Part shown: positions 2-4,382 of the stretch, piece by piece | How positions within the stretch are numbered: position 1 is the stretch's first letter | Layout of the letters: each line of letters opens with the position of its first letter | NCBI GenBank assembly: GCA_016867815.1 | Contig: VGIR01000006.1 | Span: forward strand, 1-64,000 | DNA length: 64,000 nt | DNA from: a candidate division WOR-3 bacterium | Lineage (GTDB): Bacteria > Hydrothermota > Tepidihabitantia > Tepidihabitantales > Tepidihabitantaceae | Reading direction: 5' to 3' | Position numbers and translations under genes: made by a program | Notes under the pieces: model-generated | Told to the model about the DNA's origin: nothing | The model's input: only the letters and a program-made list of their open reading frames with translations | Database searches by the model: none

Positions 2-124
2 CAGAAAGGTGAAATCGTCTACACCCACATCGGGTACAAGAAGGGCGACGAGAACCGGATCAAAGCCGAGTTCCTGAAGTGGCTGCCCGAGGAATCGGCC
101 ACCGAGGAGAAGTCGGAAGAGTGA
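2..124 (+). CDS. Thioredoxin/TlpA-like protein, C-terminal fragment (5' partial)
   Basis: This is the last 40 codons of a gene whose start lies left of the window. The visible tail (GEIVYTHIGYKKGDENRI and then a helix ending in an acidic stretch) looks like the final strand and helix of a thioredoxin-fold TlpA/redoxin protein, where a 'G-x-I-V-x-x-x-x-G' strand precedes the last helix. The catalytic CxxC would lie upstream and cannot be seen. Its stop overlaps the GTG start of the next gene by 4 bp (GTGA), so the two are probably co-translated. Family assignment is an inference from a short tail; the link to the redox genes downstream supports it. Confidence 0.6.
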   Translation, partial: QKGEIVYTHIGYKKGDENRIKAEFLKWLPEESATEEKSEE

Positions 125-1623
125 AAGCCTGGTCGGCGGCTGGCGTCCTGCTCCTCGCCCTCTGCTCCTTTTCCCGAGCCGCGGAGCTTTCCATGCAGGG
201 CACGAACAAGGCCGAGTTCTGGCTCTACGAGCAGGACTACGCCACGCACCTTGAGGACAAGCTCGACCTGAACCTCCGCTACGGCGACCTGCGCGGCGGG
301 CTGGGGTTGTTCCTCTACGAGCCATCAAAACCGTGGGACGCCGTCCGGCAGCCTTTGCGTCTGCTCGACTACACCGTTGCCTACAGCCCGAAGATGCTCG
401 AGGTCCTGTACGGGAAGTTCTTCCAGACGTTCGGCAAGGGGCTCGCCCTGCGGACGTACTCGGACGACGATTTCCGGCACTACAAGAGTCTGAACGGCCT
501 GCGCTTCATCGGTCGGCTGCCGCGGCAGACCGAACTGGTGCTGCTCGGCGCGCGGATGCGTGACATCTTCTTCCAGGAGAATGCCTACCGGGTGATGAAC
601 GCCGATTCGGTTCACGCCGACACGAACGACCAGGTGCTGGGCGCAAACCTGTCATCACGGCCGTTCAGCTTCGCCGGGTTCGGCGGGCGGTACGTGCGCG
701 TGAACCGCACCCAGGACCCGACGCCCAAAGCGTTCAACGAGCTCTTCGGCGGCGACGCCACGATTTCGGTCGGTCCGGTCGAGATCTACGGCGAAGTCTG
801 TCAGCGGCTCGGCACCAAACCCTATGTCGGCGGCCGCGAGAAGGGATTCGGATACTACCTCACCGGGACCGTCGCCATCGGCAGCTATTCGATAGTCGGC
901 GAGTACGTAGACTACGACAAGCTCGGGTTCCCGGACGTCGTGCTGGCGGACAGGAGGACTTACCGCTACACCGACCCGCCGACTCCTATCAAGTCCGGCG
1001 TGGCCATCAACCGCGGAGTGGATGAACGCGGGTTCGGCGTGACCGCGTCGGGTACTCCGACTGCGCCGCTCTATGTTGAGGCGAGTCTCGGCAGCCTGAG
1101 TGCCCCGCGCGATTCGACGAAGGGCGTGATCGAGGGTGAGGGCAAGGTGCGGTACTCGCTCGGGACCGACTGGACGTTCGAGGCGAAGTTCAACCACATG
1201 GTGCAGGAGAACATCGAGCTGCATGTGGCCAGCCGCGCGACCGACAAGCCGACCATCCATGCCAACTACCTGTTCGGCCAGCACACCTTCGCTTTCGAGG
1301 CCGAGTATAACTTCGTCACCGAGGACACGGGACACATGGTCGAACCGTGGAAGTACCACGAGGCCGCCATCTCCGCCAGCTACGGCTACGGCGAAGCGCT
1401 CCTCTTCACCGTCGGCTACCAGTTCGTGGACATGAAGCTCGACCGGCGCTTCAAAGGTGAAACGTCGTGGCCGGTGGTCGAGGCAGTCTGGTCGATAACC
1501 GAGCGGAACATGCTGCGCGTGCGGATCGGCTCCGAGCGCGGTGGCTACACCTGCTCGGGCGGTGTCTGCCGTGAAGAAGCGCCCTTCAGCGGCATCAAAG
1601 CACAGCTCATCAGCACTTTCTAG
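121..1623 (+). CDS. Outer-membrane beta-barrel protein (DUF6029-like)
   Basis: The protein has about 500 residues. I chose the GTG at 121, which overlaps the previous stop (GTGA), lies just after a GAGGAG-type ribosome site and gives a clean signal peptide (hydrophobic AAGVLLLALCSF, cut near SRA-A). The mature part is rich in alternating aromatic and polar residues, as in transmembrane beta-strands. The last residues, AQLISTF, end in phenylalanine, typical of outer-membrane proteins. The pattern near the start (KAEFWLYEQ, then LDLNLRYGDLRGGLGLFLYEPS, then LYGKFFQTFGKGLALRTY) resembles the DUF6029 family as I recall it. Its place between a thioredoxin-like gene and a polyferredoxin suggests it belongs to a periplasmic redox system, but its role is unknown. 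Confidence 0.7.
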   Translation: MKAWSAAGVLLLALCSFSRAAELSMQGTNKAEFWLYEQDYATHLEDKLDLNLRYGDLRGGLGLFLYEPSKPWDAVRQPLRLLDYTVAYSPKMLEVLYGKFFQTFGKGLALRTYSDDDFRHYKSLNGLRFIGRLPRQTELVLLGARMRDIFFQENAYRVMNADSVHADTNDQVLGANLSSRPFSFAGFGGRYVRVNRTQDPTPKAFNELFGGDATISVGPVEIYGEVCQRLGTKPYVGGREKGFGYYLTGTVAIGSYSIVGEYVDYDKLGFPDVVLADRRTYRYTDPPTPIKSGVAINRGVDERGFGVTASGTPTAPLYVEASLGSLSAPRDSTKGVIEGEGKVRYSLGTDWTFEAKFNHMVQENIELHVASRATDKPTIHANYLFGQHTFAFEAEYNFVTEDTGHMVEPWKYHEAAISASYGYGEALLFTVGYQFVDMKLDRRFKGETSWPVVEAVWSITERNMLRVRIGSERGGYTCSGGVCREEAPFSGIKAQLISTF

Positions 1624-1625
1624 AA

Positions 1626-1763
1626 GTGAAGCGGCGCATCAGTTTCGTTGTCCTCGCGGTTGTCGGGTTGGCCGCGGTCGTGCTCGGTATCAGGGCCGGG
1701 GACCCGGAGACGATTCACCGCTTCGCAGCCCAGATATGACTGTCCTGCATGGGGCTCGTGTAG
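1626..1763 (+). CDS. Small membrane UxxC protein, candidate selenoprotein (CD1871A-like)
   Basis: A GTG start at 1626 opens a 45-codon frame: a basic start (VKRR), one membrane segment (FVVLAVVGLAAVVLG), then RAGDPETIHRFAAQI, an in-frame TGA (1737-1739), LSCMGLV and a TAG stop. Reading TGA as selenocysteine gives AAQI-U-LSC-MGLV. This matches the end of the small CD1871A-type CxxC family as I recall it (an ICxxC-x-G-x ending after one membrane helix), with the first cysteine replaced by Sec. A strong hairpin follows at the distance expected for a bacterial SECIS. Neighbours are a thioredoxin-like gene and a membrane 4Fe-4S protein, a setting known for this family. If TGA is a plain stop, the product is a 37-residue peptide without any redox residue. 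The selA/selB/selC genes are not in the window. Confidence 0.72.
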
Positions 1764-1775
1764 CCTCGATGCAGG
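1744..1775 (+). promoter_or_regulatory. SECIS-like hairpin after the in-frame UGA
   Basis: CCTGCAT (1744-1750) pairs perfectly with ATGCAGG (1769-1775), and GGGGCT (1751-1756) pairs with AGCCTC (1762-1767, one G-U pair). This gives 13 bp with one bulged G (1768) and the 5-nt loop CGTGT (1757-1761). The loop starts 17 nt after the UGA and has a G in its first two positions; both fit the usual description of bacterial SECIS elements. The 3' arm also holds the AGG that serves as ribosome site for the next gene, so folding may couple Sec insertion and downstream translation. Confidence 0.7.
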
Positions 1776-1785
1776 TTCCGGCACT

Positions 1786-3393
1786 ATGACCGGCACGCGC
1801 TTCGACATCAGCGCCCGGACGCGAGTCTGTGTGTTCATTGCCATCGCCGGAGCGTCGGCAGTTTCCACGCTCCTGCTCAAATTCCTCGGGCATTTTGACT
1901 GGGGCGTGCTCTACTACGGGCTGGCCTCGATGCTGGGTTTGGGGCTCTTTCTCGCCCTGTTCCTCGGCCGGCCGACCATCCTCAACCGCTGGCTCTCTTT
2001 CGGCGTCATTGCCCTGACCGGCGCGGTCGCGGCCGCGTTCCTGAGCTTCGGCGAAAAGCTGCCGCTGGGTCGGGTACTCGTCTTCGGGTGGCTGCCGTTC
2101 GCCCTGATCATGCTGGCTACGGTCATTTTCCTGCGCCGCCGTGTCGCTCCCTACCGCGTAGTCCAGATAGCATCGGCGGTCCTGCTCAACGCCTACATCG
2201 TCGCCTACCTCCAGAACAAGATACTCTACCAGGGTTTCCTGAAGTACCTGCCGCAGCCGATACTCAACTGCTACGGTGGGCCCCTGGCGGTTTTCGCCTG
2301 CCCGATCGGCTCTACCCAGCAGATGGTCGGCATGAAGCTGCTGCCCTGGCTGCCGCTCGGCATGTTCATCGTCGTCGGCGCGGTGGTCGGGCGGGCGGCC
2401 TGCGCCTGGCTCTGTCCGTTCGGAATGTGGCAGGACCTGCTCTTCAAGGTCAAGGTTGGCGCGAAGGCGGGAAACAAGCGCTGGGCGTCGTTCGGAGGAG
2501 TCGGCCTCATCAGTGCATTGATCGCCACGGCGCTCATCTTCTTTCTGAAACTGCCGCCGCTGCGGGTCTTCCTCTACGCGTGGCTGCCGTTCAACCTGGC
2601 GGTGCTGGCCATTGTCATCAAAGGCAAGCTCGAACTGCCGCGCCGGATGCGGCTGGGCGGATTCCTGGCTGCGGTCGGGCTCGCGCTTGTCGTCTGGTTC
2701 AAGTTCGAAATCGGGTACGCGGTCGCGGCCGGGTTTGTCGCCATGATCCTGTTCGGGATTACCGGGCGCTGGCTTGGCGCCATACTTGCCGCAGTCGCCG
2801 GTTTCCTGCTCGGCTGGCTGGGCAATCCTGCCTTCCATGTCGGCCCTCTGTCGGGCCTGCCGCTGGGAATCGGTTTGGCCCTGGCGTCGCTCTTCGTGGT
2901 CGTGATGCTGGATGTGGTGGTCAAGGTGTCGCTTCCCTCCAACTTTCTCAAGTTCGGCGTGCTCTTGCTCGTGGCAGGCGTGGCTTCCTATCTCACTGCC
3001 GAGCCGTGGTTCTGCAAGCTCTGTCCGCAGGGGACGTTCGGCGCCGGCATCCCGCTCGTGCTCTGGGATCCGGTCAATGCCCTGCGTGGCCTGGTCGGCT
3101 GGCTCTACTGGGTCAAGATCGGTCTGCTGCTTTTCTTCATCGTCGCGGCCATCGCCATCAAGCGCCCGTTCTGCCGCATCATCTGTCCCATCGGTGCCGT
3201 CTACTCGCCCTTCAACAAGGGTAGTCTGATGAACCTGAAGCTGGACGAGAGCACCTGCATTCACTGCGGCATCTGCCGCAAGGTCTGCCCGATGGACATT
3301 GACCCCGTGCAGAGCCAGAACCAGCTCGAGTGCATCCGCTGCAACGAGTGCGTGGCCAACTGCCCCAAGTCCTGCCTTAGATTCCGCGCCTAA
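1786..3393 (+). CDS. Membrane 4Fe-4S polyferredoxin, NapH/NosR-like
   Basis: About 535 residues. The start ATG at 1786 follows AGG at 1773-1775, although the frame is open further upstream. The protein has many membrane helices and cysteine motifs of the NapH/MauN/NosR type: CPIGSTQ, CAWLCPFGMWQDLLF, CKLCPQGTFGAG and CRIICPIGAVYSPFN. It ends in a two-cluster ferredoxin domain (CIHCGICRKVCP and CIRCNECVANCP). Such proteins carry electrons across or along the membrane. It follows the UxxC selenoprotein directly and is likely in one operon with it. I infer that the polyferredoxin exchanges electrons with the periplasmic thiol/selenol partners. The exact physiological donor and acceptor cannot be read from the sequence. 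Confidence 0.85.
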   Translation: MTGTRFDISARTRVCVFIAIAGASAVSTLLLKFLGHFDWGVLYYGLASMLGLGLFLALFLGRPTILNRWLSFGVIALTGAVAAAFLSFGEKLPLGRVLVFGWLPFALIMLATVIFLRRRVAPYRVVQIASAVLLNAYIVAYLQNKILYQGFLKYLPQPILNCYGGPLAVFACPIGSTQQMVGMKLLPWLPLGMFIVVGAVVGRAACAWLCPFGMWQDLLFKVKVGAKAGNKRWASFGGVGLISALIATALIFFLKLPPLRVFLYAWLPFNLAVLAIVIKGKLELPRRMRLGGFLAAVGLALVVWFKFEIGYAVAAGFVAMILFGITGRWLGAILAAVAGFLLGWLGNPAFHVGPLSGLPLGIGLALASLFVVVMLDVVVKVSLPSNFLKFGVLLLVAGVASYLTAEPWFCKLCPQGTFGAGIPLVLWDPVNALRGLVGWLYWVKIGLLLFFIVAAIAIKRPFCRIICPIGAVYSPFNKGSLMNLKLDESTCIHCGICRKVCPMDIDPVQSQNQLECIRCNECVANCPKSCLRFRA

Positions 3394-3479: not shown

Positions 3480-4382
3480 ATGAGAAAACCTGACTGGCTG
3501 CGGACGGCCGTGCCGTCTGGCGCGGAGTTCGAGGCGACCAACGAGCGGCTGCGAGCGTACGGCATCAACACCGTGTGCAGCTCGGCTCGGTGTCCCAATC
3601 TCGCCGAATGCTGGGGACGCGGCACCACGACGTTCATGATTCTCGGTGACACCTGCACGCGCCACTGCCGATTCTGCGCGGTCAGGACCGGGAACCCGCA
3701 GGGCACGCTGGATAAGACCGAGCCCGAACGCGTTGCCCGCGCTGTCGTTGAACTCAAGCTCTTCTACGTCGTCCTGACCTCGGTTGACCGCGACGACCTG
3801 CCGGACCTCGGGGCGGGGATGTTCGCGGAAGCAGCCAGGCAAGTCAAAATGCAAAGTGCAGAAGGCAAAGTGCAAAATGGGCGGCCCGCGTCCCCTCTGG
3901 TTGAGGTTCTCACGCCTGATTTCGGCGGAAGAGAGGATCTGGCAGCGATGGTGGTGTCGGCTTCTCCCGACGTGTTCGGACACAACCTGGAGACAGTCGA
4001 GCGGCTCTCGCCGAAGGTACGTGACCCGCGTGCTTCCTACGAGCGTTCACTCGCCGTGCTGGCGACGGTTAAGCGTATCGCGCCTAAGTTGACGACCAAG
4101 AGCGGGTTGATGGTCGGACTGGGAGAAACCGACGACGAACTGCGGCAGGCACTCCGCGACCTGCGCTCGGTAGGCTGTGACATCGTTACGGTCGGCCAGT
4201 ATCTCCAGCCGGCGCGAAGGTGCCTGTCGGTAGAGCGCTACTTGACGCCCGAAGAATTCGTGGCGCTGGAGAAAGAGGCCCTCGCGATGGGCTTCAAGGG
4301 CGCGCTCTGCGGTCCGCTCGTGCGGAGTTCCTATCGCGCCGCAGAAGTGTCCCATTGCCCCAGTGGCCAAGAGGTCACGTGA
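3480..4382 (+). CDS. lipA: Lipoyl synthase LipA
   Basis: A radical-SAM enzyme that inserts two sulfurs into octanoyl groups on E2/H proteins to form lipoyl cofactor. The auxiliary cluster motif is C33-SSAR-C38-PNLAE-C44 and the radical-SAM motif is C59-TRH-C63-RF-C66. The C-terminal RSSY that caps the auxiliary cluster is present (GPLVRSSYRAAE). Length is 300 residues, normal for LipA. One oddity: between the helix AEAARQ and the strand LVEVLTPDF the protein carries an extra 'VKMQSAEGKVQNGRPASP' loop encoded by a low-complexity repeat (3841-3883). The ATG at 3480 has no ribosome site but sits just after a -10 box. The stop overlaps the GTG of the transporter gene. Confidence 0.95.
   Translation: MRKPDWLRTAVPSGAEFEATNERLRAYGINTVCSSARCPNLAECWGRGTTTFMILGDTCTRHCRFCAVRTGNPQGTLDKTEPERVARAVVELKLFYVVLTSVDRDDLPDLGAGMFAEAARQVKMQSAEGKVQNGRPASPLVEVLTPDFGGREDLAAMVVSASPDVFGHNLETVERLSPKVRDPRASYERSLAVLATVKRIAPKLTTKSGLMVGLGETDDELRQALRDLRSVGCDIVTVGQYLQPARRCLSVERYLTPEEFVALEKEALAMGFKGALCGPLVRSSYRAAEVSHCPSGQEVT
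3841..3883. repeat. In-frame dispersed repeat inside lipA
   Basis: The stretch reads as echoing words (CAAAATGCAAAGTGCAGAAG, then GCAAAGTGCAAAATGG) and resembles the intergenic 'CAGAATTCAGAGTGCAGAA' repeats at 51.35 and 61.9 kb. It encodes an extra loop of about a dozen residues in LipA and leaves the frame open. Confidence 0.6.

Follow-up and report, generated by a model that had tools for sequence, protein, structure and literature searches.

The closest described relatives of the small gene analysed here are the CD1871A proteins (NCBIfam NF040920), with which its product shares a single helix, a length of about 45 residues and a C-terminal motif of the CLxCIGIG type. Three further systems bear a resemblance to it. 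TsoA, the LULAxC-motif selenoprotein (NF045695), has a similar-looking motif name in which Sec is followed by Leu. The UxxC thioredoxin-like selenoproteins likewise have Sec in place of the first Cys of a redox CxxC. CcdA/DsbD (PF02683) has in common with the small protein a proposed role, namely to supply outer thioredoxins with reducing equivalents from the other side of the membrane. UxxC and CxxU sites in selenoproteins are usually redox sites (PMC13188914). The same source describes the bacterial SECIS (bSECIS) as an element with a loop 16–37 nt after the UGA, a G in the first two loop positions, a stem of 4 bp or more and an MFE at or below -7.5.

The window, that is the whole 64,000-nucleotide stretch of DNA under analysis, begins with the first base of contig C6, which belongs to a 3.37-Mb genome. 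The pattern scan brought up near relatives whose genomes are labelled 'candidate division WOR-3' and lie in Caldifarciminota on the tree. Two bases past the stop of the preceding gene, a GTG opens a short frame whose internal TGA is flanked by AAQI and LSCMGLV (Table 1). The sequence-only reading had singled out this in-frame TGA at 1737, and translation of the frame 1626–1763 confirms it: with U at the TGA, the full product is VKRRISFVVLAVVGLAAVVLGIRAGDPETIHRFAAQI-U-LSCMGLV. The family HMM, of which the window sequence is itself a part, matches positions 1626–1760 at E 8e-18, with one TGA inside the match.

Table 1. Coordinates of the small gene, its putative recoding signals, its neighbours and the CxxU genes (window positions unless a locus is named).
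Feature	Position	Strand	Description
TlpA/AhpC-TSA-like exported thioredoxin-fold protein, C-terminal end	2..124	+	cut by contig edge
DUF6029 porin-like outer-membrane protein	121..1623	+	PF19494 1.2e-17; start overlaps upstream stop
Small UxxC selenoprotein gene (very probable)	1626..1763	+	GTG start, internal TGA, TAG stop; 45 residues, one helix
Predicted Sec codon TGA	1737..1739	+	first position of CxxC motif; TGC/TGT in 53 homologues, TGA in 28
Full hairpin	1744..1775	+	13 bp, one bulged base; lower stem largely species-specific
Conserved SECIS apex GGGGCU-CGUGU-AGCCUC	1751..1767	+	straddles stop codon
SECIS apical loop CGUGU	1757..1761	+	5-nt, G at second position, 17 nt after TGA
TAG stop	1761..1763	+	A and G sit in SECIS stem
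NapH-like polytopic membrane protein, proposed redox partner	1786..3393	+	Fer4_5, Fer4_9 and others; NapH-type 2e-12
CxxU genes	L177 2390-2521; L178 2352-2483	L177 reverse	two species, genus g33

The genome is equipped for selenocysteine insertion. The genes for SelB (359 bits) and SelD (340 bits) are neighbours on C85; SelA (576 bits) maps to C4 and a tRNA-Sec (71.6 bits; anticodon TCA, ARAGORN type SeC) to C37. All score above their cut-offs, so that selA, selB, selC and selD are all present. The selD gene, which adjoins selB (L067 4101–5006; G000:C85:5600–6505), has an in-frame TGA at its own catalytic UxxK site, which points to a second Sec gene in the same genome. This machinery bears on the possibility that the TGA of the small gene specifies a residue other than Sec, through a reassigned code or near-cognate insertion of Trp or Cys. 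Such decoding is compatible with the data as far as the proteins go and is nonetheless exceedingly improbable: a tRNA-Sec with a UCA anticodon is present together with SelA, SelB and SelD, neighbouring genes still end with TGA, the site is otherwise always Cys and a covarying SECIS follows the TGA.

Homologues of the small protein are widespread. NF040920 at a permissive threshold finds matches in 60 of 120 relatives, the family HMM (window sequence included) in 64 of the 65 genomes of the class, and a broader HMM in 115 of the 147 genomes of the phylum; this near-universal presence suggests that the CD1871A-type job is probably basic to these bacteria. The 81 distinct forms differ exactly at the first Cys of the motif, where 28 have TGA and 53 have TGC or TGT, and none of the homologues ends at the TGA. 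Two features by which selenoproteins are recognized are accordingly present: conserved coding sequence on either side of an in-frame UGA, and Cys homologues at the position of the UGA, here in 53 forms. Across the seven tail codons after the TGA, single-base differences are 941 synonymous versus 208 non-synonymous (82% versus 27% expected), these being pairwise counts and not independent events.

The TGA is very improbable as a genuine stop, which would leave a 37-residue peptide devoid of redox residues, or a decayed copy of the gene. Standard annotation would indeed end the frame at the TGA, and one degenerate extra copy in another genome (G004) indicates that decay does happen. Against this, the codons past the TGA are conserved, with mostly synonymous variation across genera, Cys homologues continue through the site, the UxxC forms always end with TAG and the SECIS covaries. 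The extra copy in G004 (L097:4108–4197) is a third copy, degenerate-looking, which reads KIULSVKRWRN and is devoid of the second Cys.

Within the phylum the TGA forms are confined to a single family, f1, and a distant genus, g33, and SelA is present in g33. Mapped onto the phylogeny of the adjacent 4Fe-4S protein, the Sec label needs 5 changes (gains or losses), of which at least 4 fall on well-supported branches. In one genome (G011; L114/L040) a Cys form with TGT lies inside the TGA clade, and that genome yielded no SelA and no complete SelB, as expected for a reversion; a return from Sec to Cys after loss of the machinery is likely here. Another genome (G015; L101, L104) has two TGA copies and SelB, yet SelA was not found in it; as the genome is about 92% complete, the missing SelA is probably a gap in the assembly.

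A pattern scan for the TGA form across 84,980 species genomes returned 20 stretches. By translation, TGA forms occur in Cloacimonadota (three), Poribacteria (one), Anaerolineae (one) and a Planctomycetia-labelled MAG (one), and a hydrophobic helix precedes the motif in all of them. SelA was found in every non-Acinetobacter genome outside the phylum that has the TGA form, in fragmentary state in the Anaerolineae genome. The two Acinetobacter matches (L118, L123) are due to chance, as they are without the helix and have in-frame TGAs upstream. The Planctomycetia-labelled contig (L133; PMZT01000246.1) harbours a WOR-3-like TGA form in a WOR-3 type-B gene cluster, which represents either a transfer or a misbinned contig.

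The sequence-only reading had described a 13-bp hairpin with a 5-nt loop 17 nt past the TGA. The hairpin is real; its conservation is limited to the six apical pairs (1751–1756 with 1762–1767), the lower seven being mostly private to the window species. It agrees with the bSECIS description of PMC13188914, and its fold has a z of -2.5, with 4 of 200 shuffles folding as well. A loose bacterial SECIS model is passed by 29 of 30 TGA forms versus 2 of 53 Cys forms. Random TGAs in this GC-rich window often pass the same model (134 of 400, 33%), so that the pass rates are evidence only as a comparison between TGA and Cys forms, and the hairpin alone was rejected as proof of a SECIS. A perfect six-pair register equal to that of the small gene follows 8 of 1551 random TGAs in the window.

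The weight for a SECIS comes from conservation and covariation across relatives. Of the 22 TGA forms in the initial comparison, 20 share a single register for the six apical pairs, whereas Cys forms have a mean of 2.5 of 6. Over 21 sequences, 99.2% of the cells of the apex are paired, and covariation is 0.329 versus 0.016–0.085 for slid registers. The pair 18–28, which joins the third base of a Gly codon to the base that follows the stop, occurs as CG in nine of these sequences, as GC in nine and as UA in three, and is broken in none.

The apex takes in the stop codon, and the choice of stop is constrained to match. TAG closes every one of the 22 UxxC forms retrieved with the stop left free, versus 7 of the 53 Cys forms; the comparison of 24 TGA forms with the Cys forms gives a Fisher p of 3e-11, uncorrected for relatedness. 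The stop is fixed as UAG because its A and G are paired in the SECIS stem.

A further line of evidence is provided by genus g33. One of its genomes (G065) has the UxxC arrangement, with the tail LLULSCIGIG, and two others (G117, G146) read LLCLSUIGLE, with the TGA at the second Cys. In each of these two CxxU genes an 8-bp hairpin, its loop opening with G, follows the TGA at a distance of 21 nt, and both genes stop with TAA. A hairpin that moves with the TGA to the other Cys is hard to explain other than as a SECIS.

Taken together, the machinery, the Cys/Sec exchange, the recurrence of the TGA and the conservation and covariation of the SECIS strongly support the proposal of the sequence-only reading that the first Cys of the motif is selenocysteine. 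The gene is almost certainly a selenoprotein gene with Sec encoded by the UGA of its redox motif. The mechanism that best explains the data, and that is very probably correct, is that SelB with tRNA-Sec would decode UGA 1737 as directed by a SECIS hairpin, the conserved portion of which starts 11 nt past the UGA and takes in the UAG stop. Insertion of Sec in vivo at UGA 1737 is thus predicted from the comparison of sequences.

The genes around the small frame point towards redox chemistry. The product of the downstream gene contains CxxxCP motifs and, at its C-terminus, two [4Fe-4S] ferredoxin motifs, and it matches solved structures in its ferredoxin part only; for the small protein, no relative of solved structure was found. 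A NapH-like 4Fe-4S protein is encoded just downstream of the small gene in 67 loci, always on the same strand. The thioredoxin-fold protein truncated by the contig edge has a complete counterpart with the same C-terminus (L098), which matches AhpC-TSA (PF00578) at 1e-15. The small gene is repeatedly accompanied by exported TlpA/AhpC-TSA-like genes (motif CVNC), by DUF6029 porins and by Omp28-type genes (CTYC or CVYC). The context of thioredoxin and 4Fe-4S membrane genes that had been claimed for this type of protein is therefore borne out. Second paralogue clusters in family f1 (L116, L133, L115, L110, L104, L106) are without the 4Fe-4S gene: their order is BcrA/BcrC-like or methyltransferase genes, the small UxxC or CxxC gene and then Omp28-type thioredoxin-like genes.

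In the partner protein, the second Cys of a C[YW]xC motif (residues 162–172 of the 1786–3393 product) is missing at 18 of 22 Sec loci versus 3 of 39 Cys loci on the tree. A coupling of the loss of this Cys to Sec was considered and set aside, the association being not significant after ancestry is taken into account, with only one of four independent pairs informative. Further along the window, the gene for LipA (lipoyl synthase) contains in-frame imperfect AAAATGCAAAGTGCA-type repeats at 3841–3880, which are absent from shuffles of the window.

The mean net charge of the small proteins is +2.0 before the helix and -0.55 after it, with the N-terminal side more positive than the C-terminal side in 77 of 83, and this bias predicts that the motif lies outside the membrane. 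The product would thus consist of a single transmembrane helix with its N-terminus inside and a short outer tail ending in U-L-S-C-M-G-L-V. The selenol/thiol pair U38/C41 may take electrons from the adjacent NapH-like 4Fe-4S membrane protein and pass them to the exported proteins of thioredoxin-like type (TlpA/AhpC-TSA or Omp28-type) that are encoded in the same clusters. A plausible function, to which about even chances are given, is that of a relay anchored in the membrane, whose selenol/thiol pair would carry electrons from an Fe-S donor on the cytoplasmic side to thioredoxins outside the cytoplasm; electron transfer, its direction and the identity of the partners are proposed on the basis of motifs and gene linkage. 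The copy of G065 is not adjacent to a 4Fe-4S gene and, together with the second paralogue clusters, indicates that the relay is not universal as drawn.

Two other functions deserve consideration. The UxxC protein may serve as an assembly factor, binding a metal or Fe-S cluster or delivering one to the 4Fe-4S protein next door. Chaperone activity is conceivable for a one-helix CxxC protein encoded beside an Fe-S membrane protein, and three members show a weak likeness to FixS in Pfam, which at a best value of 0.034 is not significant. This function is rather unlikely, as recurrent thioredoxin-like genes are shared by both types of cluster, including the type without the 4Fe-4S protein, and as UxxC and CxxU selenoprotein sites tend to be redox sites (PMC13188914). 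Alternatively, the flow of electrons may be oxidizing, from the outer thioredoxins to the Fe-S protein, for instance in disulfide formation. Topology and linkage fit both directions; the ferredoxin motifs and the TlpA-like partners would suggest reduction, and the oxidizing direction is considered improbable. The relay with electrons flowing outwards, the reading preferred here, is not simply a replacement for DsbD/CcdA: the latter is present in 37 of the class's 65 genomes, and the window's own genome yielded no match to it, so that it is neither excluded by the small-protein system nor required with it.

As regards novelty, a catalogue of May 2026 that lists 119 prokaryotic selenoprotein families and subfamilies has no matchable entry (PMC13188914), and in NCBIfam of June 2026 only the Cys-named NF040920 matches the family. 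A literature search on CD1871A, and on WOR-3 or Caldifarciminota combined with selenoprotein, found nothing. The families of Haft and Tolstoy (2025) and of Haft and Gwadz (2023) were compared via NCBIfam models and the 2026 review only. The UxxC family is here called a new selenoprotein family, absent from the catalogue checked (PMC13188914). Standard gene callers are likely to miss it because the product ends only seven codons past the UGA. Its unusual features are a stop codon inside the SECIS and Sec at either place of the motif. The picture as a whole is put forward tentatively: an unlisted family, possibly among the smallest, that may act as a membrane selenol relay from 4Fe-4S protein to thioredoxins, has its stop in the SECIS and alternates between UxxC and CxxU within a genus. 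The occurrence side by side of UxxC, CxxU, CxxC and reverted forms provides a natural experiment on which of the two Cys does the attacking, and a UAG that belongs to both stop and SECIS makes a clear test of how signals for recoding and for termination coexist on common bases.

The comparison with the described systems can now be completed. TsoA differs in having a 144-position model and a printed motif that reads UxxxC, not UxxC; its profile has no match at E up to 1 in the genome of the window or in 20 relatives, and TsoA was rejected as the same family. In contrast to the UxxC thioredoxin-like selenoproteins, the small protein has no room for a thioredoxin fold and consists of a single TM helix with a short tail. 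CcdA/DsbD is unrelated in sequence, PF02683 matching neither the small protein nor its 4Fe-4S partner; an Fe-S partner takes the place of a polytopic thiol relay, and many genomes have both systems. As for CD1871A, all 29 aligned members match NF040920 at E up to 1, the best at 1e-10. When its U is treated as C, the window protein reaches 24 bits, below the 32-bit cut-off exceeded by other aligned members: the earlier description of it as CD1871A-type is right in kind, although the protein falls short of formal membership. NF040920 is named and modelled with Cys only, whereas in the window protein Sec replaces the first Cys. A single helix followed by a C-terminal CxxC, a trait of NF040920, is encountered here in the UxxC version, with exchange between Cys and Sec.
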